Source: a bacterium
GTDB taxonomy: Bacteria; Blakebacterota; Blakebacteria; Blakebacterales; Blakebacteraceae
Direction of reading: 5' to 3'
Assembly: GCA_025774615.1 (NCBI GenBank)
Contig: JALGVQ010000030.1
Location: 1 to 17,666, forward strand
DNA: 17,666 nt
The notes below the pieces were generated by a model that was given only the letters and a program-made list of their open reading frames with translations, did no database searches and was not told the DNA's origin. Shown in pieces: positions 595 to 14,795 of this stretch. Position numbers and translations under genes: made by a program. How positions within the stretch are numbered: position 1 is the stretch's first letter; every line of letters begins with the position of its first letter.

Positions 595-625
595 TACCGC
601 ATGATTTGGCACATATCTGGCACAC
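595..625 (-). repeat. Stub of the tRNA-Val-derived repeat (arm motif only)
   Basis: Only the distal end of the repeat family remains: a short TACCG..CATG segment and the doubled motif TGGCACATATCTGGCACAC (607-625, written on the plus strand). The CATG before the motif matches the subfamily of the copies at 695-890 and 9962-10099, which have GGAACATGG there. The tRNA half and the ACCGG field are absent. It lies 69 bases left of the first full copy, with a terminator-like hairpin between them. Confidence 0.7.
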
Positions 626-636
626 AAAGAAAAAGG

Positions 637-654
637 ACGTCTTTGATCAGACGT
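637..654 (-). terminator. Rho-independent-type terminator left of the first tRNA-Val half
   Basis: A perfect 6-bp inverted repeat (ACGTCT / AGACGT, 6-base loop). On the minus strand it is followed by CC and then TTTTTCTTT (634-626), the form of an intrinsic terminator. It sits about 40 bases downstream of the CCA end of the tRNA-Val half at 695-744, where a terminator would be expected after a real tRNA gene. None of the other tRNA-half copies was seen to have one. The short stem makes termination efficiency uncertain. Confidence 0.5.
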
Positions 655-694
655 GCCGGAATCAGCGCAACTGGTTACAGTATTTGGAGTTAAC

Positions 695-890
695 TGGTGG
701 GCGATACCGGATTCGAACCAGTGACTTCCTGCGTGTAAGGCAGGCCCGGACCAATATGTCCCCACCGGTCCCAACCGGTCAGTACCGGACAAAACGGCTC
801 CAATAAAGGCTCTGTGATGAGTTAGCGATCGGCCCCAACCGGTCCTGACCGGCCCCTACCGGAACATGGTTTGGCACATATCTGGCACAC
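695..890 (-). repeat. Full-length tRNA-Val(TAC) 3'-half repeat, copy A (196 bp)
   Basis: Read on the minus strand: a doubled TGTGCCA motif (890-872); ACCGG units at 10-bp steps; a middle segment; more ACCGG units; a small hairpin (GGAC/GTCC arms, 748-761); then tRNA sequence from anticodon stem to CCA (744-695). The tRNA part has a CCTGC/GCAGG stem, loop CTTACAC (anticodon TAC, valine), a T arm with loop TTCGAAT, acceptor strand ATCGCCC, discriminator A and CCA. The 5' half of the tRNA is not present, so this is not a functional tRNA gene. The break at the anticodon arm matches a usual tyrosine-recombinase attachment site. The GTTAAC just beyond CCA is shared with copy B only. Confidence 0.85.
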
Positions 891-1054
891 GGATCCATCA
901 CGCCACTACTATCACAGAGACCTGTTGATCCGTTACGCTGGCATAGTACAATCACTGGGCCGCCCCTGAGAAATATTGAGAATCCGAATACGGCTTTTAT
1001 GTTCCCGGGCGCAGGTCCAATACTTACGCTGTCTCCTTCATTAGGAGCAATCGC

Positions 1055-1132
1055 ATGAGTGCTTTTTTACGAAGTATTGCGGGCTTTCTGGTATTGAGTA
1101 TTTCCTTTCACATCATTCTCATCTGCAACTGA
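1055..1132 (+). CDS. Candidate 25-residue hydrophobic peptide or truncated secretion signal
   Basis: ATG preceded by AGGAG at 1043-1047, seven bases away, opens a 25-codon frame. It has a short basic start (MSAFLRS) and then a continuous hydrophobic run (residues 8-24), ending at TGA. It looks like a signal peptide or single membrane segment. The good ribosome site suggests either a real small membrane peptide or the surviving start of a broken exported protein. A +1 frame change after residue 18 would add only about 14 residues before another stop, so no longer protein is easily restored. The base composition changes just after its stop codon, which fits truncation at an insertion border. 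No family recognised. Confidence 0.25.
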   Translation: MSAFLRSIAGFLVLSISFHIILICN

Positions 1133-1288
1133 CGCGCTGGAACTTATATGGTGATGGGCCAGGTCTGCTTGCTCCGAGAATTGGTGGAAGCACCGTTTGC
1201 CACGGTGGAAGAGAAGGCGGAATGTGCGCCGCCCGGAAGCCGTCGATGAAGTAAGCACCATCCATCTGGTCAATGCTTGGGAGCCTTT

Positions 1289-1293
1289 GGGAG
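1289..1293 (+). promoter_or_regulatory. Ribosome binding site that sets the amine oxidase start
   Basis: GGGAG lies seven bases before ATG 1301. The earlier in-frame ATG at 1277 has no such site and would add eight residues before the conserved N-terminal block, so 1301 is preferred. Confidence 0.6.
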
Positions 1294-1300
1294 ACTAATC

Positions 1301-3247
1301 ATGAAGCGAAGCGATCGGGAATTGGGGATGGCTCGCGCCATCACGCGACGCGATTTCATCAGCGGTGTGGGAGTGGCGATCACCGGCTCGACGTTGGTGG
1401 GGCCGTGGACGGCCTCGATATGTGCCCGGGCTGGGGGTGCCGTTGCCGCTGAGGTGCCCGGGCTGGAGCAGGCCGGCGCCTACTATCCACCGGATGAGAT
1501 GGGGATGCGGGGCAGCCACGAAGGATCCTTCGAGGTGGCGCACGCATTGCGCGACGGCGCACGTTGGGACGACCTGGGGCCGGAAGCCGAGACAAACGAG
1601 CAGTACGACCTGGTCGTGGTGGGCGGTGGCCTCAGCGGATTGGCGGCGGCGTACTTCTTCCGTAAAGAGGCCGGACCCGAGGCGCGCATCCTGGTGCTGG
1701 ATAGCTGCAACGACTTCGGGGGGCACGCCACGCGCAACGAGTTTCGTTCGGGGGAGCGCACGCTGTTGATCAACGGAGGCACGATCAACATCGAGGACTT
1801 AAGCACGTACGACGAGCCGTCTCAGGCGATGATCCGCGAACTCGGCATCGACGTCGGGCGATACGCTGAATTCCATGACGCCGAGCTGTACCCGTCGCTG
1901 GGGCTCAAAGGCGGTGTCTTCTTCGACGAGGAAACCTTTGGTGTTGACCGGCTCGTTGTCGGACAGGACGGACTCGAAGTGCACGAATTCCTGGCCATGA
2001 CGCCGCTGTCCGAGCCGGCGCGCAAGGACATCGCACGGCTCTTTGATGACCGGGTGGACTATCTACCAGGTCGATCGCTGGCGGAGAAGACGGACACATT
2101 GAGGCGGATGTCCTATCTCCAGTTCCTCACGGATCTCGTTAAAGTAGATGCCGATGTGGTGCCCTACTTCCAGTCCTGGCGACAGGGATACTGGGGGATC
2201 GGCAATGACGAGCTACCGGCCGAGATGGCCCGGGTGACCGGCTTTCCTGGCTTCCAGGGTATGGGATTCCCCGATTCCGGGCCGAGCGAGGGTGTCTTCC
2301 CCGTCGTTACACCCACCAGCGATCAATACTTCCGATTTCCCGATGGCAGCGCCTCGATAGCGCGTCTACTGGTGAGGAGCATGATCCCCACCGCCGCACC
2401 GGGTGGCAGCGCGGAGGATATCGTGACGGCTCGGTTCGACTACGCGCAGCTCGATCGGGACGGCGCACCCGTGCGGATCCGGCTGAACAGCACGGCCGTG
2501 CGCGTGCAACATGTCGGGGACAATGAAAGCTCGAGAGAGGTGGAGGTGACGTACGTTCGCTCGGGCCGGGCGCGGCGGGTGCGGGGCCGCTCCTGCGTGC
2601 TCGCCTGCTACAACGCCATGATCCCGTACATATGTCCGGAGCTACCCGAGGCGCAGCGCGAGGCGCTTTCTTTTGCCTTGAAGGCGCCCAAAGTGTACAC
2701 CAGCGTGTTGATCCGGAACTGGAAGGCTTTCCAGCGATTGGGGCTCAACCAGGCGTTCTGCCCCGGGAGCTATCACGACAGCGTGGGTCTGGGCGATCCG
2801 ATCAGCATGGGCGAGTATCACTGCCCGCGCACGCCAGACGAGCCGATGGTTTTGCAGCTGTACCGGGTGCCAGTGTATCCGGGATTGCCGGCGCCAGAGC
2901 AGTGGAAGGCAGGGATGTGGGAGTTGCAGACCACGGCCTTCGAAGTGTTCGAACGCAAGGTCCGCGATCAGCTGGGGCGCATGCTCAGCGACGGCGGTTT
3001 CGATCCGGCCCGTGACATCGAGGCGATCACCGTCAACCGCTGGCCCCACGGCTACGGCTTTTACAGCGACCCTACTACCGGAGAGGTTGCGTGGACCGGC
3101 GAGTGGCCGGTACAGGAGCGCCCGTGGCTACGCGCCCGCCAGCCCTTCGGCCGCATCGCCATCGCGAACTGTGACGCCGCGAACAACGCCATGGCCGAAG
3201 CCTCGTTCAGCGAGGCTTACCGCGCCGTCCAAGAGGTGCTTAGATAG
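1301..3247 (+). CDS. Tat-exported FAD-dependent amine oxidase, spermidine dehydrogenase-like
   Basis: 648 residues. The N-terminus carries a twin-arginine signal (TRRDFI, residues 15-20, then a hydrophobic stretch), so a folded, cofactor-loaded protein is exported to the periplasm. A dinucleotide-binding motif VVVGGGLSGLAAA (106-118) and the downstream LDSCNDFGGHATRNEF (133-148) mark an FAD-binding amine oxidase/NAD(P)-binding fold. The segment YYPPDEMGMRGSHEGSFEVAH (61-81) and the C-terminal FGRIAIANCDAANNAMAEA match what I know of SpdH-type spermidine dehydrogenases and relatives of about 630-650 residues. The substrate is inferred from family only and could be another amine. The gene is on the opposite strand from most neighbours and much richer in GC (39 of 60 bases at 2581-2640 versus 29 of 60 at 5461-5520 in the kinase gene), suggesting recent transfer. 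No partner cytochrome gene is adjacent. Confidence 0.8.
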   Translation: MKRSDRELGMARAITRRDFISGVGVAITGSTLVGPWTASICARAGGAVAAEVPGLEQAGAYYPPDEMGMRGSHEGSFEVAHALRDGARWDDLGPEAETNEQYDLVVVGGGLSGLAAAYFFRKEAGPEARILVLDSCNDFGGHATRNEFRSGERTLLINGGTINIEDLSTYDEPSQAMIRELGIDVGRYAEFHDAELYPSLGLKGGVFFDEETFGVDRLVVGQDGLEVHEFLAMTPLSEPARKDIARLFDDRVDYLPGRSLAEKTDTLRRMSYLQFLTDLVKVDADVVPYFQSWRQGYWGIGNDELPAEMARVTGFPGFQGMGFPDSGPSEGVFPVVTPTSDQYFRFPDGSASIARLLVRSMIPTAAPGGSAEDIVTARFDYAQLDRDGAPVRIRLNSTAVRVQHVGDNESSREVEVTYVRSGRARRVRGRSCVLACYNAMIPYICPELPEAQREALSFALKAPKVYTSVLIRNWKAFQRLGLNQAFCPGSYHDSVGLGDPISMGEYHCPRTPDEPMVLQLYRVPVYPGLPAPEQWKAGMWELQTTAFEVFERKVRDQLGRMLSDGGFDPARDIEAITVNRWPHGYGFYSDPTTGEVAWTGEWPVQERPWLRARQPFGRIAIANCDAANNAMAEASFSEAYRAVQEVLR

Positions 3248-3350
3248 GTGATTCAAGCTACCTGTTGAGGGTACGAGGCAGGCTCTCGCTTCTTGATCAG
3301 GTCACCGACTCGCATGTCTCATGGAAGTGTTTGCCTGATTTATAGTTAAC

Positions 3351-3452
3351 TGGTGGGCGATACCGGATTCGAACCAGTGACTTCCTGCGTGTAAGGCAGG
3401 CCCGGGCCAATATGCCCCCACCGGAACAGAGTTTGGCACATATCTGGCACAC
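3351..3452 (-). repeat. tRNA-Val(TAC) 3'-half repeat, copy B (102 bp, internal deletion)
   Basis: Same order as copy A, but shorter by exactly 94 bp. The tRNA half (3351-3400) and hairpin (GGGC/GCCC, 3404-3417) run straight into the last ACCGG and then the doubled TGTGCCA motif (3452-3434). In copy A the first and last ACCGG units start 94 bp apart (764 and 858), so loss between them explains this copy. GGAACAGAG beside the motif places it with copies C and E. The kinase stop codon lies 12 bases to its right. Confidence 0.85.
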
Positions 3453-3464
3453 GAGCAGAGGAGC

Positions 3465-6400
3465 CTAATCGCTCAGATCGGCGTCAAGTACTTCCCTGAC
3501 CTTCTTCGCGATCCCGACCAGAGTGAAGGGCTTCTGGAGCAGATTGACCCCTTCATGCAGTATCCCATGGTGCGCGATAGCATTGTCCGTGTAGCCGCTC
3601 ATATAGAGTACGCGCACGGAGGGATAGGACTCCTGCACGTCTTTGGCCAGTTTCGGTCCATCCATGCCTGGCATCACGACATCCGTCAACAGCAGATCGA
3701 TCGTTCCCTTCCGATCTCCAGCGAAGAGGAGAGCTTCTTTGGCCTCGGCATAGTCGTGTACTTCATACCCCAGATTGGTGAGCACTTCGGCCGCCAGCTC
3801 CCTTACCGTATCCTCATCCTCCACCAGCAGAATGGTCTCTGATCCTGTCGGGAGATCGGCCTCGCCGGCCTCCGTAGGGTCTGCTTCTGCACGTTCCCGT
3901 GTAATAGGCAGGTAGATCTTGAACGTCGTACCGATCCCCTTCTCACTGTAGACATTGATCGCCCCCCCGTTCTGCTTCACGATTCCGAATACCGTGGACA
4001 GGCCGAGCCCTGTCCCGCTCTCTTTCGTAGTGTAGAAGGGTTCGAAGACCTGATCTATGATCTCATCGCTCATTCCGGTGCCTGTATCGGTAATTGCCAG
4101 TCGCGCATAGAGGCCGGGGGTGATATAGGAGTGGGTGTTGATGTAATGCTCGTCTATCTCCACCTGTTCTGTTTCTATCACCAGAGTTCCTCCACGGGGC
4201 ATCGCCTCCCGGGCATTGACGAACAGGTTCATGAGCACCTGGGTCAGCTGTTCCTGATCCATGTAGATGTTGCCGACATCCTCGCCCGGCATGAAGGTCA
4301 ACTTGATATCCTCGCCGATCACCCGATGCAGTATGCTCATGAGACCAGAGATCGTGTCATTGATATCAAAGACGTGAGGCTCGGCGATCTGCTTGCGACT
4401 GAAGGCCAGCAGCTGCTGGGTGAGTCCAGCCGCGTGGGTACCTGCTTTCTTGATATTCAGGATTCGATTGCGGTAAGGGCTCTCGTCAGGCAGATCACCC
4501 AGGATCAGTTCGACGTTCCCGCTTATCACTGTGAGGATGTTATTGAAGTCATGCGCGATCCCACCCGCAAGCCTTCCTATCGCCTCCATCTTCTGGGCCT
4601 GGCGGAACTGGTCTTCCAACTGCTTCTGGTCCGTGATATCCAGGACCGAGGACTGGTAACCGACTATGTCTCCGGACACATTCCTGATGACCGTTGCCAG
4701 CGCATGTGCACTAAAGGTCGTGCCATCCTTCTTCAGGGCGGCGTATTCCCCTTCCCATTCCCCGAAATCGTTCAGCGTGGTGATGATCCGGGTCGCCTCG
4801 ACCTCGGATGCAAGGAAATCACTGATCGGTTTGCCGACTGCTTCTTCCTCACTCTCGTAGCCCCAGCATCTGCAGAAAGCGGCGTTTACATGTGTGAGAA
4901 TGCCCTTGTCGTCTAATGTGCTGTTCGCGGTGAGAGACGACTCGAAAACCTGGTTCTTCAACAACAGTTCAACTTCGGCCTCCTTGCGCTCTGTGATATC
5001 CCGGAATATCTCCAATTTTGAAATGCTGCCGTCCGCGTTATACAGCGGGGAGTCGATCAGATCATAGGTCCTGTCATTCTTTGACGAGTACCATTCCCAG
5101 TGTACGGTCTTCCCGGCCTGGACCTCTTTATTCCGGCACCAGGGACAGACATCTTCCCGGTCGTGGAAGTATGTGTAGCACTTACGGTTCTCGTAGGGGC
5201 CGAAATCTGCAATAAGAACAGGATTCACATACTCGATATCGTAGTCCGGATTCGCTATATAGACACCATCGACCATTGCCTCGAAAATCTGTTTCAGTTT
5301 GTTTCTCTCTGCCCGCAGCTCCTGGTCTATCTGCTTTTTTCTGGTGATGTCCCTGGCTGTTCCGGCCATAGCGAACGGGTTCCCCCGCTCATCTTTCAAC
5401 AACGTCGTTGCCATTGAAGTCAGGAAGGACCTTCCGTCCCTGGTTACATGTCCGACTTCCCCGCTGTGAGTACCGTGCTTCCTGACCTTTTCGTTGAACG
5501 GTAATACTTCATTCTCATTCTGTTCTTTTGTGTGAAAAAGGGAAAGATGGCTGCCAATCAGCTCCTCGGAATTCTGGTAACCGTGCATTTCGCACCAGGC
5601 ATCGTTGACGAACGTAAGAGTACCATCCAGTTCGGCGATCGCCATACCTTCGACCGACTGTTCAACCACGGTTGAAAGTGCTTTGATCGTCTCAAGGGAC
5701 CCCTCCAACTCATCTGCTCTTTCCATGTTATACAGGGCGAATGCGATATCTTCAGCCAGCACCTTGAACAGGGATTGCTCCTCATAATCCGCTACCAGAT
5801 CGGGTGCACAGGTGGCGTTAAGCAAGCCATAGATCGTCCCGTCATGTTCCAATCGGATCGATCTCGATGAATAGCCTTCATTTCCCCCGGCAAGGGGACA
5901 GTCGCCGCAGGTGACAGAAGTATCTTCGATTGTATAAGCTCCATCTTCCTTTATTGCCTTCTCGACACAGACGGGCATTTCGCCACGTTTCAGCCTCTCC
6001 ATCAATGAAGCGAATGGTTTGCCAAAGCCTGCCTCGGTACCTGCAGCGCATATGCCGGAATCATCCAGAAGGATGATCCAGGCAGCCTGATAGCCAGGGA
6101 GCTCAACGAGATTCTCGCAGATTCCCTTCAGTAGTCTGTCTCGGTCACTCTCTACGACGATCAGTCGGTTGATCTTGCGAATGGTTTGGAGGATGAGATT
6201 CAGGTGTTCAATCTTCACCACCCTCAACTCTTTCCCTGTCACGTCCTCTCCGGAACTGAGGGTACCGACGATGCCGCCATCCTCATTCCGGAGAACGGTG
6301 TTGTGCCACGCGATGGTCCTACGCTCTCCATCTTTGGTGATTATTGGAGTGTGATAATACTCAGTCGGTTCGATCTCACCCTCTATCAGGCGATTGAAAA

Positions 6401-6614
6401 CAGAATGTACGTCAGCTCGTATATCTTCGGACACAAATGTATCAAACCAATTGCTGCCGATTATCTCATTCTGTGTATATCCCAGGATGTCGCAGCCCTT
6501 CTGGTTGATCAGGTCCACATTCCCCTCGGAATCAAGGGCTACGAACATGATCCCGGCGATATTCAGGAACTGCTCAATCTCGATCTTTAGTGCATTCCCT
6601 CTTTGAGCCTTCAT
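3465..6614 (-). CDS. Soluble multi-PAS/GAF hybrid histidine kinase with receiver domain
   Basis: 1049 residues, no membrane segment or signal peptide. Order: PAS (about 10-125); GAF (about 135-300, with CGDC at 236-239); PAS (about 310-428); PAS with three cysteines C479, C490, C493 (about 435-545); PAS (about 550-665); HisKA with phospho-acceptor H688 in GGIAHDFNN; ATPase domain with N796/N800, DTGTGM (843-848) and GTGLGLS (867-873); receiver (about 926-1045) with D933, phospho-acceptor D978, S1006 and K1028. All residues needed for autophosphorylation and internal transfer are present. There is no HPt or output domain, so the partner regulator is elsewhere. Ligand unknown. It is the only gene between repeats B and C. 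ATG 6614 follows GGTGGA at a plausible distance; no other in-frame start is better. Confidence 0.9.
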   Translation of the reverse strand: MKAQRGNALKIEIEQFLNIAGIMFVALDSEGNVDLINQKGCDILGYTQNEIIGSNWFDTFVSEDIRADVHSVFNRLIEGEIEPTEYYHTPIITKDGERRTIAWHNTVLRNEDGGIVGTLSSGEDVTGKELRVVKIEHLNLILQTIRKINRLIVVESDRDRLLKGICENLVELPGYQAAWIILLDDSGICAAGTEAGFGKPFASLMERLKRGEMPVCVEKAIKEDGAYTIEDTSVTCGDCPLAGGNEGYSSRSIRLEHDGTIYGLLNATCAPDLVADYEEQSLFKVLAEDIAFALYNMERADELEGSLETIKALSTVVEQSVEGMAIAELDGTLTFVNDAWCEMHGYQNSEELIGSHLSLFHTKEQNENEVLPFNEKVRKHGTHSGEVGHVTRDGRSFLTSMATTLLKDERGNPFAMAGTARDITRKKQIDQELRAERNKLKQIFEAMVDGVYIANPDYDIEYVNPVLIADFGPYENRKCYTYFHDREDVCPWCRNKEVQAGKTVHWEWYSSKNDRTYDLIDSPLYNADGSISKLEIFRDITERKEAEVELLLKNQVFESSLTANSTLDDKGILTHVNAAFCRCWGYESEEEAVGKPISDFLASEVEATRIITTLNDFGEWEGEYAALKKDGTTFSAHALATVIRNVSGDIVGYQSSVLDITDQKQLEDQFRQAQKMEAIGRLAGGIAHDFNNILTVISGNVELILGDLPDESPYRNRILNIKKAGTHAAGLTQQLLAFSRKQIAEPHVFDINDTISGLMSILHRVIGEDIKLTFMPGEDVGNIYMDQEQLTQVLMNLFVNAREAMPRGGTLVIETEQVEIDEHYINTHSYITPGLYARLAITDTGTGMSDEIIDQVFEPFYTTKESGTGLGLSTVFGIVKQNGGAINVYSEKGIGTTFKIYLPITRERAEADPTEAGEADLPTGSETILLVEDEDTVRELAAEVLTNLGYEVHDYAEAKEALLFAGDRKGTIDLLLTDVVMPGMDGPKLAKDVQESYPSVRVLYMSGYTDNAIAHHGILHEGVNLLQKPFTLVGIAKKVREVLDADLSD

Positions 6615-6637
6615 GGCATTCCACCGCCGATCTGCCT

Positions 6638-6652
6638 TGCATCAATGATGCA
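6638..6652. promoter_or_regulatory. Perfect dyad just upstream of the kinase start
   Basis: TGCATCA-A-TGATGCA is a 7-bp perfect inverted repeat around one base, 24 bases before ATG 6614 and 13 bases downstream of the proposed -10 box. It could be an operator near the transcription start, or a hairpin in the mRNA leader. No regulator is identified. Confidence 0.4.
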
Positions 6653-6665
6653 GCAACTTTGCGCG

Positions 6666-6696
6666 ATTATATCTTCTCAGGAATCCCTGGTACCAG
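6666..6696 (-). promoter_or_regulatory. Candidate kinase promoter: consensus -10 with palindrome at -35
   Basis: On the minus strand TATAAT (6671-6666) is a perfect -10 box about 50 bases before the kinase start. At 17-bp spacing the -35 position holds GGTACC, not a TTGACA-like box. That GGTACC is the centre of a perfect 10-bp palindrome CTGGTACCAG (6696-6687). A consensus -10 with a palindrome replacing the -35 box suggests control by a dimeric regulator. This is inferred from sequence only. Confidence 0.45.
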
Positions 6697-6857
6697 CACT
6701 TTCACCTGCCCGGTGGATATCATCCCTGCCCGGTTCTGGAGGCGGCATCCCAACCCCATGCCTTATGCAGATTCAATATTCAGTGGTTATATCAATAATC
6801 CGCTTCGCTGATAGTGGTAGGTACTTTATGCAATCTGTTGCGGATACTTGAGATATC

Positions 6858-7053
6858 TGGTGGGCGATACCGGATTCGAACCAGTGACTTCCTGCGTGTA
6901 AGGCAGGCCCGGGCCAATATGCCCCAACCGGTCCCAACCGGTCAGTACCGGACAAACCGGCTTCAGTAAAGGCTCTGTGACGAGTCAGCGATCGGCCCCA
7001 ACCGGTCCTGACCGGCCCCTACCGGAACAGAGTTTGGCGCATATCTGGCGCAC
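6858..7053 (-). repeat. Full-length tRNA-Val(TAC) 3'-half repeat, copy C (196 bp)
   Basis: Same length and order as copy A: tRNA half 6858-6907; hairpin GGGC/GCCC (6911-6924); ACCGG units; middle segment; second ACCGG field; doubled arm motif (7053-7035). Here both halves of the arm motif carry the same change (TGTGCCA to TGCGCCA). The 13-mer GCCCCAACCGGTC occurs twice, at 6921 and 6995, 74 bp apart, which explains the shorter copy E. The PQQ lipoprotein stop lies 64 bases to its right. Confidence 0.85.
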
Positions 7054-7117
7054 GGAAGTATTCCTACCTCGATAATCACAAACTCAGGTAATGACCAGAC
7101 CAGGCTGTGGGTCGATA

Positions 7118-8356
7118 TCACGGAGGGAAAGATGTTCCCGAGTTGCGGAGGTTCGACCGGAAATTTGGCCAACCATCCGTCTCGGCTCTGTCTCCATCGG
7201 CCGAGAGCGCAAAGAGGGAGAACTCCTTGCCGACCAGTATTCTCCCGTCTTCGGTCAGTATCGGTGATCCGAACCAACTTGCTTCCCCCATCTTGTAGCG
7301 CCAACGAATCGAACCTCCTGAACCAAATGAATAGAGTCGGGCACCGTAGAATCCCCCGTCAGTGACAATGGCATACAGACTGCCGCTCTTGCCCAATGCA
7401 GGGGATGTCAGGATGGTACCTTCAAGTCTCTTTACCCATTTCACCGAGCCATCCGGATGAAATGCGTATAGTCTGCTCTTCTTGTACGGAGGTATTCCCC
7501 CTGTAGGTCTTCCCATCCATTCGGGACAGACCGGCACAAAGATCGTGCCATCTGGCCCAACAACGGGATCGGCGAACAGATCCATCCATAAGATATCTGA
7601 CCTGGGCACCCCGAACTTCCAGCCGAGGGTGCCATCAGAATTCACGGCGTAAACTGTCGTATCCCCTGTAACAATGATCCGCCCATCACTGGCTATGACC
7701 GGGGATGTATCACAGTATTGTGGAAAATGAAACTCCCACAGAACGCTCCCAGGGGATTCGACGGCCAGCAATCGACTATGGCGTTCTGGTGAACCTGTAT
7801 GATCGGTGACATAGATCAGCCCTGTAGAATCGATCGCAGGTGAGCAGTCCCACCCACTCTCCAGAGTCAGCTGCCAGATCTGATTGCCGTTCTGACCGAT
7901 CGCCCTCAGGTATCCTTCTGTCGAGCAGTAGTACACGGTTCCGTCAGCATCCACGGCTGGGAGCGACTCGAAGACCCTTCCGGTCGGCACCTTCCATCGT
8001 AGAGTTCCATCGGGCCAGATCGAATAGAGATACTCGTCCTCTGAGATCACGTGGATTGAGCCATCAGGAGCAATAACGGGAGGAGACTGAATAGATTGTT
8101 GTGTCAGGAACCGCCACTTCAACGGTCCATTCGGATCGAGGGCATACAGGTACGCATCCCTGGAGCTGACATAGATCGTGCCGTCATCACCAATCGCCGG
8201 GCAGTATATGATCCAGCCGTTTGTCCGGTATTCCCATAGGGCAATATCGTCCAGTGGCCGCACCGGATTCCGCGTACATCCCTGGCTCAGTAGAAGGGCA
8301 CAACCCACCAGGCCGATCAATGTGTTGGTGACTGAACATTTCAGGAAGTGAATCAT
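7118..8356 (-). CDS. PQQ-like eight-blade beta-propeller lipoprotein (second gene of pair 1)
   Basis: 412 residues. ATG 8356 is chosen because it overlaps the stop of the upstream gene as ATGA, and because it gives an immediate signal peptide with a lipoprotein-like cleavage site LLSQGC (C27). The longer frame starting at 8410 would bury that signal. After it come eight repeats of about 40 residues built around D-G-[TS]-[IV]-[YHI] strands, each followed by L-Y-A-x-x-P-[DN]-G and W, typical of a PQQ-like propeller. No PQQ-enzyme catalytic residues were recognised, so a structural or binding role at the cell envelope is likelier than dehydrogenase activity. The C-terminal motif WPNFRSNLRNSG is shared with its neighbours. 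Paralogue of the protein at 10109-11278. Translation is probably coupled to the gene before it. Confidence 0.8.
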   Translation of the reverse strand: MIHFLKCSVTNTLIGLVGCALLLSQGCTRNPVRPLDDIALWEYRTNGWIIYCPAIGDDGTIYVSSRDAYLYALDPNGPLKWRFLTQQSIQSPPVIAPDGSIHVISEDEYLYSIWPDGTLRWKVPTGRVFESLPAVDADGTVYYCSTEGYLRAIGQNGNQIWQLTLESGWDCSPAIDSTGLIYVTDHTGSPERHSRLLAVESPGSVLWEFHFPQYCDTSPVIASDGRIIVTGDTTVYAVNSDGTLGWKFGVPRSDILWMDLFADPVVGPDGTIFVPVCPEWMGRPTGGIPPYKKSRLYAFHPDGSVKWVKRLEGTILTSPALGKSGSLYAIVTDGGFYGARLYSFGSGGSIRWRYKMGEASWFGSPILTEDGRILVGKEFSLFALSADGDRAETDGWPNFRSNLRNSGTSFPP

Positions 8357-9858
8357 TGGTCCTGATACCGGTAGCCGGTGTTCCGGGCATTCCCTCGGTA
8401 TTTCGGCCAAGGACTGTCCGCGAGGCCGTCAGAGTCGATTTCGATGGCGTAAAAGTACCCGGCATCATCCAGAGCATAGAGGCTGCCTGACACCAGCGCA
8501 GGAGAGGATTCGAATTCTCCTCGGGCATGGTATTCCCACAGGAGAGAGCCATCGGGATTGAGCGCCAGAAGGGTGCTGGGCCCTCCGTGATCAGTCGTAC
8601 CGATATATACCGTCCCATCCGCTCCAACCGCTGGTGAAGAGCTGATCCATCTCTGTGCCGGATAGGTCCAGAGAATGGTGCCATCTGGATTCAGAGCGTA
8701 AACATGGGTGTCATACCCACCGACATAGAGCGTACCGTCTAGACCGATAGCCGGGGATGAATTGGTACTGGTGGATTGAGTATGCGGGATATCGGTCTGC
8801 CAGAGTAGTTGTCCTGTGCTGGTGAGAGCGAAGACGAAATCATCTTCGGAGAATCGGGCTGCCTTGGCATAGATCGTCCCATCGGCATCCAGCGCAGGTG
8901 AAGATATCTGGTAGCCTCCGGTCTCATACTCCCACTCCAGATCCCCTTCCGGCGAAATGGCATAGAACCGCCCCCTGCGATTCCCGATGTAGATCGTCCC
9001 GTCCGAACCGATCGCCGGCGAATTCTGATTGTGACCTCTGGTAGAATTGCCGATCAGATACACCCATTTCCCCTGTCCCGAAGGATCAAGGGCGTACAGA
9101 AAACCATTATCAGAGGCTATGTAAATAGTGCCATCAGGACCGATTCCCGGTGAACCGTCGACCTCTCCCGCCGTCTTGAATGTCCATTTCACCGATCCAT
9201 CGGGTGAAACCGCATATATGTTCGAATCAGTCGAGCCGAAGATGATCGAACCATCATCACTGACAGCCGGAGAGGCGTCGATCTGTCCGCCTGTAAGGAC
9301 CTTCCAGATAATCTCCCCCGCAGGCGAGATGGCGTACAGACCGGAGTCCCCTGATCCGACATAGACCGTTCCGTCGTCACCGATGGCAGCCGAAGATTTG
9401 TTTGTGAAATACGTGTTCTCTGTTCCGATAGACAGGATCCACCTGCTGCGGCCGGCTACCTGTACCGACCTGTCACACACGCTCGTATTCCCGCCAGGAT
9501 CTGTAACCTGTAAGCGGATGGAATGAACACCTTCAATGAAGTATTGGTGGGAATCGATCGGGCTCGGTTTCAGATCTCCGAATCCATGTCTGCCAGGTTC
9601 ATAGTCCCAGTTCCATTGATACCTGAGATAGTCATCAGGATCGTCCGGGTCGGTGCTAGCCGAGGCATCAACTACAAACCACGATTCGGTCGTCCCTGTT
9701 ACGGGGAGTATCTGAAAGTCAGCAATCGGAGGATTATTGGGAGGTGCCGAATAGACTTGTTTTACAGGGTTGTTCTCACATGCTGATATAATCCCGCACC
9801 CGATAACGAGCAGTCCCAAGATGATCATACCACCAATTCTGTGTGACACTTTGATCAT
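8353..9858 (-). CDS. PKD-domain plus PQQ-like propeller lipoprotein (first gene of pair 1)
   Basis: 501 residues. Signal peptide with lipobox IISAC (C27), so it is probably anchored to a membrane. A PKD-type immunoglobulin-like domain follows (about 42-134), with the marker VVDASASTDPDDPDD (62-76) and a YQWNWD strand. Then come eight propeller repeats (about 138-478), each with a DGTIYIG-like strand and a YALxPDGxxxW-like strand, and a tail SPWPKYRGNARNTGY common in this type of protein. PKD domains commonly mediate protein or sugar contacts outside the cell. The function is not known; the pairing with a second propeller by an ATGA overlap suggests the two are made in equal amounts and may act together. 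The ribosome site (GTGAG region) is weak. Confidence 0.85.
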   Translation of the reverse strand: MIKVSHRIGGMIILGLLVIGCGIISACENNPVKQVYSAPPNNPPIADFQILPVTGTTESWFVVDASASTDPDDPDDYLRYQWNWDYEPGRHGFGDLKPSPIDSHQYFIEGVHSIRLQVTDPGGNTSVCDRSVQVAGRSRWILSIGTENTYFTNKSSAAIGDDGTVYVGSGDSGLYAISPAGEIIWKVLTGGQIDASPAVSDDGSIIFGSTDSNIYAVSPDGSVKWTFKTAGEVDGSPGIGPDGTIYIASDNGFLYALDPSGQGKWVYLIGNSTRGHNQNSPAIGSDGTIYIGNRRGRFYAISPEGDLEWEYETGGYQISSPALDADGTIYAKAARFSEDDFVFALTSTGQLLWQTDIPHTQSTSTNSSPAIGLDGTLYVGGYDTHVYALNPDGTILWTYPAQRWISSSPAVGADGTVYIGTTDHGGPSTLLALNPDGSLLWEYHARGEFESSPALVSGSLYALDDAGYFYAIEIDSDGLADSPWPKYRGNARNTGYRYQDQ

Positions 9859-9961
9859 TTAGATCTCACGAATAACCAAATGTAATGAAGCTACTCTCAG
9901 GTTGGACGAAACAGTCTGGTGGAGGTTTACGATGCAAGCCTCTGAACGGATGACGATAGGC

Positions 9962-10099
9962 TATGCCCCCCAACCGGTCACAACCGGTCAGTACCGGACA
10001 AAACGGCTTCAGTAAAGGCTTCTGGATGAGTTAGCGATCGGACCCAACCGGTCCTGACCGGCCCCTACCGGAACATGGTTTGGCACATATCTGGCACAC
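9962..10099 (-). repeat. tRNA-derived repeat, copy D, lacking the tRNA half
   Basis: Contains both ACCGG fields, the middle segment and the doubled TGTGCCA motif (10099-10081), but stops just before the anticodon arm: from TATGCCCC leftward the sequence no longer matches. Details (AAAACGGCT, GTTAGCGATCGG, GGAACATGG) group it with copy A. It lies between the two PQQ pairs, nine bases after the stop codon of the gene at 10109. Loss of exactly the tRNA part may reflect an incomplete event or later deletion. Confidence 0.8.
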
Positions 10100-10108
10100 G
10101 AGCAACTC

Positions 10109-11278
10109 CTATGGATAATCAAGCCTACCGGTGTTTTCAGGATTTGCCCGCAATGAACTCCAGCATCCGTTCGCCTGATCCACGTCTGGTGTCTCGATCG
10201 CCATCAACGTGTTTTCTCCATTACTCACGAGGATGATCCCGAAGGAAGTGAGTTGAATGAGACCCTCGGAGAGGAACTGATCGGTGGACACTCTCTCTGA
10301 CACAGATCCGTTGCCGTTGAGCCTTACCACCGAATGACCACGAGGATGATATGAGATATGTTGTGAAGAACTCACCACCGGGGTGACGCTGATACGGGCT
10401 CCTGCATCATGTTTCCAGATTGGATTACCCTCGGGTGACAGCGCGGAAAGGAAGTGGTCCCAAGAAGTCGTATAAATTGTTCCATCCGGTCCGACAACCG
10501 GTGTCCCACGTACTATTCCGTCGGAACGAACACTCCAGCTATATGAACCGTCAGGCGCGATCGCATACACCCTCCAATCATCAGTACCGAGAAGAACCGT
10601 ACCATCCTGAACCAGCGAGAGAGCGGTCTCAGGTTCGCCGCACTGTGTGTGTTCCCAGAGTTGCACTCCACTGTTACTGAATGCCGCTACGCCTTCATTG
10701 GTGCCGACGAATAGTGATCCATCAGGACCGATTGAGATGGGAGTAGTGACAGTCATACCGACATCCACAACAGAGAGAAGGGTCCCACCGGAGGATAACC
10801 GGCAAAGATTATCATTCTGACTAACGATCCAGATTGATCCGTCTGCCGCCAGGGCGGGTAATGACAAGAACCCGCCATCTTCCGAACTCCACCATGCTTC
10901 AACGCCCTCGGGTGTGATGGCGTGCAGCCGGGCATCATAGGTGACAGCAAACACGACACCCGACTCAGCTACTACCGGGATGCCAGCCCAGCTGATCCTC
11001 TCCCGAACGTACCATTGCACTCGACCGGATGAGTCAAGCGCATAGAGGTTGGCGTCTTTCGAGGTGACATAGATCATCTCCCGCGCGCGATCAACGGCGA
11101 CTCCTGTGATCTCATCATTGGCCTGGTAGATCCAAAAGGTGTCCAGTGAGGGTTCGGTTGGAGAGGACCCGCAACCGGTCAGGATCAGGCTGGCTGTTGT
11201 CAGTATCAGGAGGCAAGACAGGTGATTCCCTGGCCCGGGCCGGTTGCTAGTCGGACGAGGTATCGCCGGCAATGTCAT
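10109..11278 (-). CDS. PQQ-like eight-blade beta-propeller lipoprotein (second gene of pair 2)
   Basis: 389 residues from ATG 11278, one base after the stop of the preceding gene (TAA-C-ATG), which implies coupled translation. A longer frame from 11362 would overlap that gene by over 80 bases and bury the signal. The signal peptide ends in a canonical lipobox LTGC (C36), with an unusually long polar start containing prolines. Eight propeller repeats follow, several degenerate (repeats 7 and 8 lack the D-G pair). The tail CWSSLRANPENTG is a worn version of the shared WPxxRxNxxNTG motif. Paralogue of 7118-8356 but clearly diverged. Its stop codon is nine bases from repeat D. Specific function unknown. 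Confidence 0.8.
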   Translation of the reverse strand: MTLPAIPRPTSNRPGPGNHLSCLLILTTASLILTGCGSSPTEPSLDTFWIYQANDEITGVAVDRAREMIYVTSKDANLYALDSSGRVQWYVRERISWAGIPVVAESGVVFAVTYDARLHAITPEGVEAWWSSEDGGFLSLPALAADGSIWIVSQNDNLCRLSSGGTLLSVVDVGMTVTTPISIGPDGSLFVGTNEGVAAFSNSGVQLWEHTQCGEPETALSLVQDGTVLLGTDDWRVYAIAPDGSYSWSVRSDGIVRGTPVVGPDGTIYTTSWDHFLSALSPEGNPIWKHDAGARISVTPVVSSSQHISYHPRGHSVVRLNGNGSVSERVSTDQFLSEGLIQLTSFGIILVSNGENTLMAIETPDVDQANGCWSSLRANPENTGRLDYP

Positions 11279-11279
11279 G

Positions 11280-12740
11280 TTACCGGCCAAGGTTTCCCGA
11301 GCCTCCCCGATATCGGGGCCATTGACCGGCCGCGAGACCGTCGGTATGACAGGTGACTGCAATCAGGATCCCATCGGCATCGAGGCAGTAGATCACATGG
11401 TCTCCCAGCACAGGCGCCGAGAAAAAGCCGAGGTCGGTATCGAAGTGCCAGGATAAGGTGCCATCAGTCTGGTAGGCCCGGATCGAACCCCGGTGATCAG
11501 CGGTATAGATCATGCCGTCGGATCCGATCATCGGTGACGCTGCGATCGTTTTATGGTCGGGATCATTCCAGAGTTCGAATCCGGCGGAATCGAACGCGTA
11601 AATACCACCGTATCCCGGCGCTACGATAATCGTTCCGTCCGGAGTAATAGCGGGAACAGGCAGGTGGTTGGCATAGGTGAAGAAAGACAGAGGCACAGTC
11701 CAGCGCAGGTTTCCCTGTTTGTCCAGTGAGACCATCTGTGGAAAGCTGCTCCCACCTTTCATCCCCAAATAGATATCTCCATTGTCAGCGACGACGACAT
11801 GGGTCGCCCTGTCAAAACCTGGAAACGTGTATTCCCAGCGGGTTGTGCCATCAGGGTTAAAAGAGCGGAGTGATCCGGTACTGCCTGGAAAGTAGATGAC
11901 GTCACCATTGCCCAGGATTGGCGTGTAGCTGTCGTTGAGCCAGTGATATCCTGCTGCTCCCGACACCAGCCACTGTCGCTCTCCAGATGGATTCAAGGCC
12001 ATCAGATCCCCCTCAAGGGTGCCCAGATAGAGGGTGCCATCACTGCCGACGGTCGGTGAGCCGACGATCCTGTCCGGAATCTGAATCTGCCACAGAGTGT
12101 TCCCCGATGAATCCAGGGCATGGAGAGAGGTATCAGTGCCAAGGTAGATAGTTCCTTCATCAGTGATGACAGGGGGGCCGATATCCTCAGTGTAAAATGA
12201 TCTGGACCAGATGATCGCTCCGCCTGAATCGACCGCAAAGATATTTCCGGCCGATGTCACGGCATAGATGGTGCCATCTGAACCGAGAGCCAGAGCTTCG
12301 AAATTCCCGAGCCACCGTCCCCTGCCCAGGTCGACCCGCCACTCCTCAATACCTGAGATAAGGACCTCAAGGGAGTCGATACCCGACTGTCGACCGGGAT
12401 CGTAAACCATGGCTTTGACCTTGAATATCCCCGGCCGGTTGAACATGTGAGTGGTCTGTTTCGTAAATCCCCCCTGAGCGCCCCATTCACCACTGCCGTC
12501 ACCCCAGTTCCAATAGACTCGAAGGTTCTCCTGTGGATCATCGGGATCGGTACTTGCGCCGGCATCAAATGTGAACTCCGTGAAAATGGACCCGCTGTCG
12601 GGTAGAACAGAGATATGAACGCTCGGTGGTTCATTGGCAGGTGCGAGAATCAATTCAGAATCAGGAGACGTAGGAGTCTTCGCACAACCGAAAAAAATAA
12701 CCGGAAGGCAGAATAATGGGCTGTATCTGGAGATAATCAT
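11280..12740 (-). CDS. PKD-domain plus PQQ-like propeller lipoprotein (first gene of pair 2)
   Basis: 486 residues. A short signal peptide ends in a lipobox-like FFGC (C19). The PKD-type domain (about 38-130) has DAGASTDPDDP (59-69) and YWNWGDGSGEW, closer to the classic WDFGDG motif than in its paralogue. It is followed by eight propeller repeats (about 135-470) and the tail GQWPRYRGGSGN. It matches the protein at 8353-9858 in domain order and repeat number, so the two operons look like an old duplication. No clear ribosome site precedes ATG 12740. It faces the lipoprotein gene at 12835 across a 94-bp divergent region with a perfect dyad. Confidence 0.85.
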   Translation of the reverse strand: MIISRYSPLFCLPVIFFGCAKTPTSPDSELILAPANEPPSVHISVLPDSGSIFTEFTFDAGASTDPDDPQENLRVYWNWGDGSGEWGAQGGFTKQTTHMFNRPGIFKVKAMVYDPGRQSGIDSLEVLISGIEEWRVDLGRGRWLGNFEALALGSDGTIYAVTSAGNIFAVDSGGAIIWSRSFYTEDIGPPVITDEGTIYLGTDTSLHALDSSGNTLWQIQIPDRIVGSPTVGSDGTLYLGTLEGDLMALNPSGERQWLVSGAAGYHWLNDSYTPILGNGDVIYFPGSTGSLRSFNPDGTTRWEYTFPGFDRATHVVVADNGDIYLGMKGGSSFPQMVSLDKQGNLRWTVPLSFFTYANHLPVPAITPDGTIIVAPGYGGIYAFDSAGFELWNDPDHKTIAASPMIGSDGMIYTADHRGSIRAYQTDGTLSWHFDTDLGFFSAPVLGDHVIYCLDADGILIAVTCHTDGLAAGQWPRYRGGSGNLGR

Positions 12741-12772
12741 CTCAATGATGGGACGCCGACCTGAGGAAGGCT

Positions 12773-12793
12773 GTTTACTGAATTAGAGTAAAC
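12773..12793. promoter_or_regulatory. Perfect inverted repeat in the divergent intergenic region
   Basis: Arms GTTTACT (12773-12779) and AGTAAAC (12787-12793) match perfectly across a 7-base spacer GAATTAG. They sit near the middle of the 94-bp gap between the divergent genes starting at 12740 and 12835. Arms centred 14 bp apart suit a dimeric regulator; it may coordinate both genes. No convincing promoter boxes could be assigned. Confidence 0.45.
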
Positions 12794-12834
12794 GGGTCTG
12801 AGTACCGGCCCGTACTTCCTGCAGGAGACCATAC

Positions 12835-13503
12835 ATGAATCCATTCCGTAAAGCTGACTGTCGTCTCATTCTGGTTGTCACCTGCCTGACATCGTTCTGG
12901 TCGACCTCATGCAGCTCACCGACATCTCCCTTCACAGGTAACGCTGCCCTCCACTACATGCTCTCCATCCCCGAAGTCCCTTTACCGGTCGAAACGGAAG
13001 CGAACAGAGTGAGTCCCGGATTCATGACCACCTTTGAGAAGTGCCACGACGTATATCGAGGACTCAAATACAATTTCAACTACATTCTTGAAGAGATCCT
13101 TGAACAACAGATCCCCTGTGAAACTCGCGGGGATACTCTCTGCTGGGTCCTGGAGTCCGGATACTATTCCCGAATCCTCACCGTTGTCCCACACGACTCA
13201 CTGACGTTCGAGATCAGCTATCCCCGCCTTTCCTATTCATACTCGGGCTGGATCAACAAGAACATGAGATCGGGCAGCGTGGGAACGGACTACTGGTCCT
13301 TCGAGTGGTATTCTCATCAAGGATACCGGGACTGGTATTTCAGCCCCCGACTCGGCTACGTCCATATGCTGACAGACAGCCTGGGGCGCGGTGGTCGGCT
13401 GTATGAATACGATTATGGTGCTGTTCTTCCTGTCTTCCAGGAGTTCTTCGAGGCTACCTGGGATGGTCAGGGGCACGGCTGGAGCTGGGCCGGATCCTGG
13501 TAA
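12835..13503 (+). CDS. Putative lipoprotein of unknown function
   Basis: 222 residues. AGGAG (12823-12827) lies seven bases before the ATG. The N-terminus has a basic start, a hydrophobic stretch and STSC (C26), a probable lipoprotein cleavage site; the next residues (SSPTSP) resemble the linkers of the nearby PQQ lipoproteins (SSPTEP, KTPTSP). The mature part is rich in tyrosine and tryptophan (for example YSGWINKNM, GTDYWSFEWYSHQGYRDWYF) and has further cysteines at 70, 95 and 103. No family recognised. It is divergent from PQQ pair 2 and may share its regulation. Repeat E begins six bases after its stop codon. Confidence 0.75.
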   Translation: MNPFRKADCRLILVVTCLTSFWSTSCSSPTSPFTGNAALHYMLSIPEVPLPVETEANRVSPGFMTTFEKCHDVYRGLKYNFNYILEEILEQQIPCETRGDTLCWVLESGYYSRILTVVPHDSLTFEISYPRLSYSYSGWINKNMRSGSVGTDYWSFEWYSHQGYRDWYFSPRLGYVHMLTDSLGRGGRLYEYDYGAVLPVFQEFFEATWDGQGHGWSWAGSW

Positions 13504-13509
13504 GTGAGC

Positions 13510-13631
13510 TGGTGGGCGATACCGGATTCGAACCAGTGACTTCCTGCGTGTAAGGCAGGCCCGGGCCACTATGCCCCAACCGGTCCTGACCGGCCCCTAC
13601 CGGAACAGAGTTTGGCACATATCTGGCACAC
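13510..13631 (-). repeat. tRNA-Val(TAC) 3'-half repeat, copy E (122 bp, internal deletion)
   Basis: tRNA half 13510-13559; hairpin GGGC/GCCC with an altered loop (13563-13576); one ACCGG field; doubled arm motif (13631-13613). It is exactly 74 bp shorter than copies A and C, the distance between the two GCCCCAACCGGTC copies in C, so recombination or slippage between those 13-mers explains it. GGAACAGAG groups it with B and C. It begins six bases after the stop of the plus-strand lipoprotein gene. Confidence 0.85.
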
Positions 13632-13718
13632 GGACCGATCCATTTATCAGTGTTCACAAACTCAGGGAGAGATCACGGTTCATAAAGATGTGATCCTTCG
13701 GGGAGACAACCCTCTTGA

Positions 13719-14660
13719 TCACCCTCTATTTTCAACCCTTTCAGCCAGAAGGGCGTGCAGCTTGGGAAGAGCTCGTTCCATTGCCCGTTCACCGGCACGG
13801 ATCCCCTCGTCCGCACTGAGGTAGGTTAGTCCACGGGGAAGCTCCGGATGAATAATCATGTCCGCCGGCCACAGGGTCAACTTGAGGCGCATGATCTCCT
13901 GTTGGAAGATTGCCACCGATTGATTGATGATGCTGTATACCCCCGGCAGAGGGCGTTCTTCCTCCGGTCGCTCTTTGAACACGCTATCCAGAAGCTCTGT
14001 CAGACTCCCCGGAACCCATGTCTTGCTCGTTCCTCCTTCTCGAAGGCCCTGTCCCAGACGTTCCCACATGCCTCGCCGATCCGAAGTCGTAGGGTAAGGA
14101 GTGGGAACAATATCGATCCCAATCACGATATCCACTCCCATCTCCCGACAGACCCGCACCGGCATCGGCTCCACCAACCCTCCATCCACCAGGAGGTGTC
14201 CTTCCCAGCGCACCGGATGGAAGATACCCGGGATCGAGGCGGACGCGCGCATGGCATCGGCCAAGGATCCACGATCAAGCACCACCGCCTCCCCAGTATC
14301 GATGTCGCATCCGATGGCAGCAAACGGAATGGGAAGTTTTTCAATCTGTACGTTGTCGAGCAAGTCATGCAAGTACTTACGAACCTCTTTCCCCGAGCTC
14401 AGGCCCGCACGCGGAAAGGTGGGGAGAAAGCTCCTCACTACCTTTGGGAGGTCCGTGTTGAGCCACTCCTGTTCGATCCGTCCTACCGATACCCCAGCCG
14501 CGTAAGCCCCGCCTACAACCGCTCCGATGCTCGAACCCACCACAGCGGAGATGGATATCTTTTCCCTTTCGAGGACCTTCAACACACCGGCGTGAGCCGA
14601 TCCGCGCGACCCACCCGAAGCAAGGGCTAGCCCGATCTTCACCTCTTTAAGATCGCTCAA
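13719..14660 (-). CDS. Patatin-like phospholipase (RssA-type)
   Basis: 313 residues from TTG 14660. Patatin-fold serine hydrolases release fatty acids from membrane lipids or other acyl esters. Seen: the oxyanion loop GGSRGSAHAG (16-25), nucleophile motif GSSIG (S44) and the dyad partner DGG (D159-G161), all intact. There is no signal peptide, so it is probably cytosolic or loosely bound to the inner face of the membrane; single-domain members of similar length are common in bacteria. The substrate cannot be told from sequence. The start is set by AGGAGG at 14674-14669, eight bases before TTG; the upstream in-frame ATG 14702 has no ribosome site. It is the only gene between repeats E and F. 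Confidence 0.85.
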   Translation of the reverse strand: MSDLKEVKIGLALASGGSRGSAHAGVLKVLEREKISISAVVGSSIGAVVGGAYAAGVSVGRIEQEWLNTDLPKVVRSFLPTFPRAGLSSGKEVRKYLHDLLDNVQIEKLPIPFAAIGCDIDTGEAVVLDRGSLADAMRASASIPGIFHPVRWEGHLLVDGGLVEPMPVRVCREMGVDIVIGIDIVPTPYPTTSDRRGMWERLGQGLREGGTSKTWVPGSLTELLDSVFKERPEEERPLPGVYSIINQSVAIFQQEIMRLKLTLWPADMIIHPELPRGLTYLSADEGIRAGERAMERALPKLHALLAERVENRG

Positions 14661-14668
14661 CAGGTATC

Positions 14669-14674
14669 CCTCCT
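14669..14674 (-). promoter_or_regulatory. Strong ribosome binding site selecting a TTG start for the patatin gene
   Basis: AGGAGG read on the minus strand, eight bases before TTG 14660-14658. It lies inside the longer frame from ATG 14702, which itself lacks a ribosome site, so the shorter protein is preferred. Confidence 0.6.
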
Positions 14675-14718
14675 GGAAAAGATGTGCGTCGTCAGAGTTC
14701 ATCGTGACAAGCTCGGCC

Positions 14719-14795
14719 TGGTGGGCGATACCGGATTTGATTCAGTGACTTCCTGCGTGTAAGGAAAAAACATAGTTGGCACATATCTGGCACAC
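14719..14795 (-). repeat. Degenerate tRNA-Val 3'-half repeat, copy F (77 bp)
   Basis: Acceptor strand and CCA are kept (14719-14732), but the T loop is mutated (ATCAAAT in place of TTCGAAT, with a changed T stem). The match ends inside the anticodon arm (14764), where GCAGG is lost. All ACCGG units are missing, yet the doubled TGTGCCA motif (14795-14777) is intact. The motif thus outlasts decay of the tRNA part. Confidence 0.75.

Follow-up and report, generated by a model that had tools for sequence, protein, structure and literature searches.

Half-tRNA-Val(TAC) repeats bounding small integrase-less intervals in a Blakebacterota genome, probably part of an additive genomic island

The stretch of DNA analysed here (hereafter the window) is a 17,666-nucleotide contig from a member of the Blakebacterota (GenBank assembly GCA_025774615.1, contig JALGVQ010000030.1), and corresponds to the entire contig C283 of the source genome G000, in which copies of the 3′ half of a tRNA-Val(TAC) gene bound intervals of unrelated cargo. 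We consider it likely that the window is part of an additive genomic island anchored at tRNA-Val(TAC), made up of a tandem array of integrase-less cassettes resembling cis-mobilizable elements (CIMEs). What is directly observed comprises the sites, uniformly oriented and clustered, the point at which the tRNA is broken, a half conserved in excess of its surroundings, cargo of mixed kinds, and differences between species at comparable sites. Copies were found by repeat search and pattern scans, and are described below in the sense of the tRNA, which is the minus strand throughout the window.

Five half-tRNA-Val(TAC) copies (A, B, C, E and F) lie in the window along with copy D, which keeps the arm without a half, and a stub of the direct repeat; all are on the minus strand (Table 1), and none carries a tRNA 5′ half. 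The direct-repeat motif GTGTGCCAGATATGTGCCA occurs seven times in C283, always on the minus strand, and at the five copies with a half it precedes an arm, after which comes the tRNA-Val(TAC) 3′ half; the fullest site opens with a head (TGATCTCTCCCTGAGTTTGTGAACACTGA...), which is followed by the direct repeat, the CCGG-unit arm, GGCCCGG and the half. Copies A, B, C and E share one letter-identical 51-nt half (GCCTGCCTTACACG...CCA, or GCCTGCC...CCA); that of copy F starts at CTTACACG and has three changes in its 44-nt core. The break point, GCCTGCC/CTTACACG, falls in the anticodon arm, a standard subsite of tyrosine recombinases (2083 anticodon-centred islands in Islander; PMC4383910). The CCGG units are helically phased at a spacing of 10 bp (positions 28, 38, 48 and 58, then 93, 102, 112 and 122 in A, C and the first copy on a second contig, C200-1), their number ranging from roughly one in B to eight in A, C and C200-1, and a short class, comprised of F and C200:7730, has a T-run in place of the arm. 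An initial annotation, made from the letters of the window, had described this array with its five halves, arm-only copy, stub, single orientation and missing 5′ half, and our repeat and pattern scans reproduced it; its interval list and cargo, its placing of the break in the anticodon arm, its single conserved site per interval with unrelated cargo and its statement that the intervals hold no integrase were likewise correct.

The tRNA half is conserved beyond the rest of the site. Across the three long copies, variable columns number 0 of 51 in the half as against 22 of 145 in the arm (Fisher p=0.0013), and pairwise divergence among seven copies is 0.6% in the half, 12.9% in the 20 nt 5′ of it and 66% in the 30 nt 3′ of it. 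Furthermore, six displaced halves match the core of the intact tRNA on contig C52 exactly, while their arms differ. Past CCA, likeness to the downstream flank of the intact tRNA is seen in A, B and a copy on a contig of a second genome (G001:C65) and is weaker in the others, after which the sequences diverge. Since a passive repeat should diverge evenly, whereas the half stays near-invariant, this pattern argues for site-specific insertion. It would be expected from either service of the half in a working tRNA before displacement or its retention as a recombination site.

These sites are confined to a small part of the genome. In the G000 assembly (3.3 Mb in 324 contigs, 82% completeness), the 44-nt core, with up to 3 mismatches allowed, occurs ten times: five times on C283 (all minus), four times on C200 (all plus) and once in the intact tRNA-Val(TAC) gene, C52:871-948, which folds as a cloverleaf. 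A reversed control pattern of the 44-mer gave 0 occurrences in the same 3.3 Mb. The direct repeat is found only on C283, C200, C103, C248 and C52, with 11 of its 14 sites within 0.8% of the assembly (binomial p ~3e-21), in a uniform orientation per contig (7/7 on C283 and 4/4 on C200) and often 10-90 bp past a stop codon; that of copy B, for example, starts 13 bp past the kinase stop, and the position of the stub mirrors a motif ~67 bp past the intact tRNA on C52. Because 114 identical bases are common to C103 and the end of C200 (C200 8824-8937; C103 426-539), C103 is probably a neighbour of C200. To the left of this overlap the two sequences part, which suggests either variation between strains or faulty assembly close to a direct-repeat site. 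The direct repeat with its head also stands between genes, with neither arm nor half, at C103 317 and 5396, at G001:C464 ~4024 and 7271, and at C200 5056.

Beyond this genome, an exact scan of 85k genomes for the direct repeat returned only 4 isolated matches in unrelated taxa, and exact scans of viral contigs gave 0 matches both for the direct repeat and for a 32-mer of the tRNA half. The CCGG-arm pattern had 15 matches in viral contigs, at pattern level only, and arm DNA had no match among phage and plasmid records. A possible second array in genome G015 was discarded, its matches being ordinary full tRNA genes. Within the window, two 'tRNA-Val' calls by ARAGORN were rejected as genes because their false 5′ halves are made of arm sequence and because all four complete halves fall under the Rfam gathering score (27.0-28.8 versus 29 bits).

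The bounded intervals differ in composition (GC 43.5-62.6%, GC3 57-79%) and in content. Those of C283 carry an oxidoreductase, a hybrid kinase, beta-propeller pairs and a patatin, unrelated to one another, and those of C200 carry Fic, TolB/hydrolase, PadR with a membrane protein, UspA and a HicA-type toxin. The last of these (PF07927, 1.8e-14; C200 7258-7712) is the sole cargo of a ~550-bp interval of 43.5% GC between two half-tRNA sites; a small frame upstream looks HicB-like by eye and has no Pfam match. No integrase was found in the bounded intervals, PF00589 matches being restricted to C312, C244 and C245, with none on C283 or C200.

Table 1. Sites, intervals and a species-specific segment of the window (C283), in window coordinates.
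Feature	Position	Strand	Content
Stub	607-625	-	motif GTGTGCCAGATATGTGCCA alone, 19-nt direct repeat; 69 bp past CCA of copy A
Copy A, long form	694-890	-	direct repeat 872-890; CCGG arm 746-871; tRNA-Val 3′ half 695-745
Interval A-B	895-3343	.	FAD-dependent (amine-oxidase-like) oxidoreductase 1277-3247(+); GC 61.3%
Copy B, short arm (one CCGG unit)	3350-3452	-	direct repeat 3434-3452; tRNA half 3351-3401
Interval B-C	3455-6850	.	PAS/GAF hybrid histidine kinase 3465-6614(-); GC 52.6%
Copy C, long form	6857-7053	-	direct repeat 7035-7053 (2 changes); arm 6909-7034; tRNA half 6858-6908
Interval C-D	7055-9960	.	two PQQ/BamB-like beta-propeller genes, 7118-8410(-) and 8353-9858(-)
Copy D	9968-10100	-	direct repeat and long arm kept; tRNA half lost
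Interval D-E	10102-13500	.	PQQ/BamB-like genes 10109-11362(-) and 11280-12740(-); small secreted-type protein 12835-13503(+)
Copy E	13509-13675	-	44-nt head 13632-13675; direct repeat 13613-13631; three-unit arm; tRNA half 13510-13560
Interval E-F	13632-14717	.	patatin-like phospholipase 13719-14702(-); as measured, includes copy E head (13632-13675)
Copy F, short-arm form	14718-14795	-	degenerate tRNA half 14719-14762
55-bp segment	14759-14813	-	in G000, not in G002; duplicated ACGCAG on both sides

Comparison within the phylum was made among four genomes (G000-G003; completeness 63-85%, all fragmented), of which G001 belongs to the same genus as G000 and G002 to another. Different cargo lies beside comparable halves in G001 and G000. 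Contig C65 of G001 starts inside the half, keeps the flank of copy A for ~40 bp and then continues into genes that lie on two other, unlinked contigs of G000. In addition, the UspA block of G001 is 98.6% identical over 358 bp, as against 76-78% in backbone blocks, and a half-tRNA lies on the same contig; on this sequence identity, the block is one shared recently between species. In G002, a thioesterase, the half-tRNA and the patatin occur at the position of F in the same order and at 90% identity, and the homology block stops at window base 13675, the exact start of the copy E head. The G002 contig with the orthologous tRNA-Val gene stops 23 nt into the half, as expected if the assembly was broken by the repeat. 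G001:C52 was considered as a tRNA-Val locus and rejected as a different tRNA.

As a mechanism, we propose that cassettes of one to three genes and 0.55-3.4 kb, lacking an integrase, would have been added serially, with site-specific recombination taking place within the anticodon arm of the tRNA gene. With every incoming element would come its own tRNA 3′ half, so that the gene is restored and the older half is pushed downstream, and the displaced site would then consist of an optional head, the TGTGCCA direct repeat, one to eight CCGG units and the tRNA 3′ half. The CCGG arm and direct repeat would be bound, and the anticodon loop cut, by a tyrosine recombinase that acts in trans or has since been lost, and the array would lie downstream of the intact tRNA-Val. 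It is improbable, in our view, that the system goes as far as a dedicated trans-acting recombinase that reads the TGTGCCA repeat together with the phased CCGG arm, and by which single-gene cassettes are inserted at, or removed from, any half, with the tRNA serving as 'attI', the halves as 'attC' and the cassettes drawn from a lineage-wide pool.

Turning to candidate enzymes, G000 encodes three PF00589 proteins: an XerC-like protein beside topA and hslU, an Xer-like protein on C312, and a tyrosine integrase immediately upstream of an IS91-type transposase (C245 284-2394). By neighbourhood and domains, the three are Xer-type or IS91-linked, and no IntI-type gene was seen among them, with no IntI-specific model having been run. 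The single PF00239 protein is a large serine recombinase of 515 aa (C293 8123-9670) with no array sites nearby; its segment interrupts a gene, and a similar flank (GACTCCCCCAACGCAGTCGATAAC) is found inverted at the contig end. None of the G000 integrase, IS91-integrase or serine-recombinase contigs carries array sites. In the unrelated genome G057 (contigs C53, C69, C237, C92 and C4), a single intact tRNA-Val(TAC) is accompanied by five halves, all of which start at the same anticodon-loop position, with a terminator-like hairpin past most of them. On its contig C53, the half at 2032 lies 82 bp past a truncated tyrosine integrase (1641-1949; a C-terminal remnant, PF00589, 1.3e-17). This remnant is the only direct link of such sites to an enzyme class, and a link by analogy; its place beside a half points to a tyrosine recombinase for the array described here.

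Several observations weigh against an additive tRNA-Val island. The intact tRNA-Val(TAC) gene, which the initial annotation had predicted to the right on the minus strand and which does exist in the genome, sits on a separate 3.6-kb contig (C52), with no assembled link to the array. Some direct-repeat sites (C200:5056, C103:317 and the stub) have no tRNA half, a situation that the simple model fails to predict. The recombinase expected beside such sites was not found in the scanned contigs of the four incomplete phylum genomes. Nor did any of these genomes lack exactly one whole interval, a pair that was not seen because the comparison was limited to four fragmented assemblies; the sole precise presence/absence difference is at F, where the direct repeat and short arm, 55 bp flanked by ACGCAG hexamers in G000, are missing from G002. 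This difference may reflect replication slippage between the 6-bp repeats and is not counted as proof. The cassette-like interpretation of the initial annotation stands as to sites, break, cargo and an intact tRNA in the genome, and falls short as to a recombinase with adjacent sites and strain differences of single intervals. Copies scattered genome-wide in both orientations within conserved surroundings, the outcome that it had named as refuting, were not obtained, the core copies being on two contigs plus the intact gene.

Other explanations can be weighed on the same evidence. The variable length of the copies, the direct repeat or arm standing alone at some places (C248, C103 and C100) and the frequent position of direct repeats shortly past stop codons would suit a non-autonomous repeat containing half a tRNA, similar to miniature inverted-repeat transposable elements (MITEs) or repetitive extragenic palindromic (REP) sequences and spread by transposition between genes of one region. 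However, all nine displaced cores lie on two contigs with one orientation each, the tRNA half is far better conserved than the remaining repeat, the cargo beside the half differs between species, and the repeat search of the copies found no terminal inverted repeats; we hold such an origin to be unlikely.

A second possibility is that the island is old and its sites inert, in which case homologous exchange among the repeats, together with tandem duplication and slippage, would account for the variation. Intervals C-D and D-E share an overlapping two-gene PQQ layout (7118-9858 and 10109-12740, each with a PKD domain in the upstream gene), possibly the product of a tandem duplication across copy D, which has lost its half; slippage between the ACGCAG repeats would explain the 55-bp change at F, and no recombinase was identified. 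Yet the remaining cargo shows no duplication, six displaced halves are letter-identical to the intact tRNA though their arms differ, and the UspA block was exchanged recently between species, to judge by its identity, which makes wholly inert sites a doubtful account. We regard as very improbable a third reading, in which the repeat, arm and half together serve a dedicated recombinase as an all-purpose cassette site, with insertion wherever such a site occurs instead of chiefly at the tRNA gene. The single site per cassette, the single orientation, the small cargo including the ~550-bp HicA-type cassette, the variable site length with conserved ends and the direct-repeat-only sites that also separate genes all recall integrons, but the attC-like fold is weak (DNA z -1.75 for copy C), no conserved R′/R″ attC boxes were found across copies, the GTTRRRY-like bases past CCA (GTTAACT) are seen only in A and B, and an IntI-type gene was not seen among the three PF00589 proteins.

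The initial annotation did not recognise this arrangement, yet tandem islands bounded by tRNA or tmRNA 3′-end repeats, many without an integrase, have been described. The array therefore belongs to a known kind, since integrase-less members of such tandem islands are reported for Dehalococcoides (PMC3146451), for Ca. Actinomarinales, with tRNA 3′-end repeats in additive islands (PMC7771536), and for Methylophilaceae fGI-2, with 20 bp of tRNA-Lys repeated (PMC10872708). In the Dehalococcoides ssrA islands, 15 of 31 have no integration module and were read as possible cis-mobilizable elements (PMC3146451). Like the array here, they lie in tandem behind one RNA gene, are bounded by 3′-end repeats and have a conserved motif upstream; they differ in a tmRNA target, a 20-bp repeat broken in the T-loop and a serine recombinase, DsiB, on about half of the islands (PMC3146451), as against a tRNA-Val target, a 51-nt half, an anticodon-arm break and no integrase found. 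Membership of that group was rejected, as the target is tRNA-Val and the sole PF00239 protein lies elsewhere with other flanks. With CIMEs the array shares integrase-less DNA between att sites and serial accretion, and differs in that a partner integrative element was not found. Tycheposons are similarly tRNA-bounded with varied cargo, but are described as having 4-200 kb and a tyrosine recombinase (PMC10872708), in contrast to the units of 0.55-3.4 kb without one seen here; the array was not assigned to them, as no tyrosine recombinase was found within a bounded element, and an autonomous genomic island or prophage was rejected because PF00589 is not in the intervals. Integrons share small unidirectional cassettes with one site each and toxin-antitoxin-type cargo, but here the site is a tRNA half, and membership was rejected as no IntI-type gene was seen among the three PF00589 proteins, no conserved attC boxes were found across copies and the fold of copy C is weak.

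The array also resembles additive flexible genomic islands (fGIs), which have small cassettes at a tRNA, partial-tRNA direct repeats and content that varies between strains. Alteromonas fGI1 likewise has a tRNA as gene-cassette target, and one Alteromonas island carries a 52-nt repeat of tRNA-Leu (PMC4119200). Additive islands consist in large part of cassettes that lack an integrase and lie at tRNA genes, and what moves them is rarely known; here, with about nine displaced copies, a phased arm of variable length and a separate direct repeat, the site is concrete enough for an enzyme search. Compared with the fGIs, the array has small cassettes with nearly all sites intact, and the long CCGG-phased arm and the TGTGCCA direct repeat are not described in the available accounts of those islands. 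Taken together, the array is of a known kind, from which it differs by its long structured arm, by a separate direct repeat, which at some places stands on its own, and by the small size of its units.

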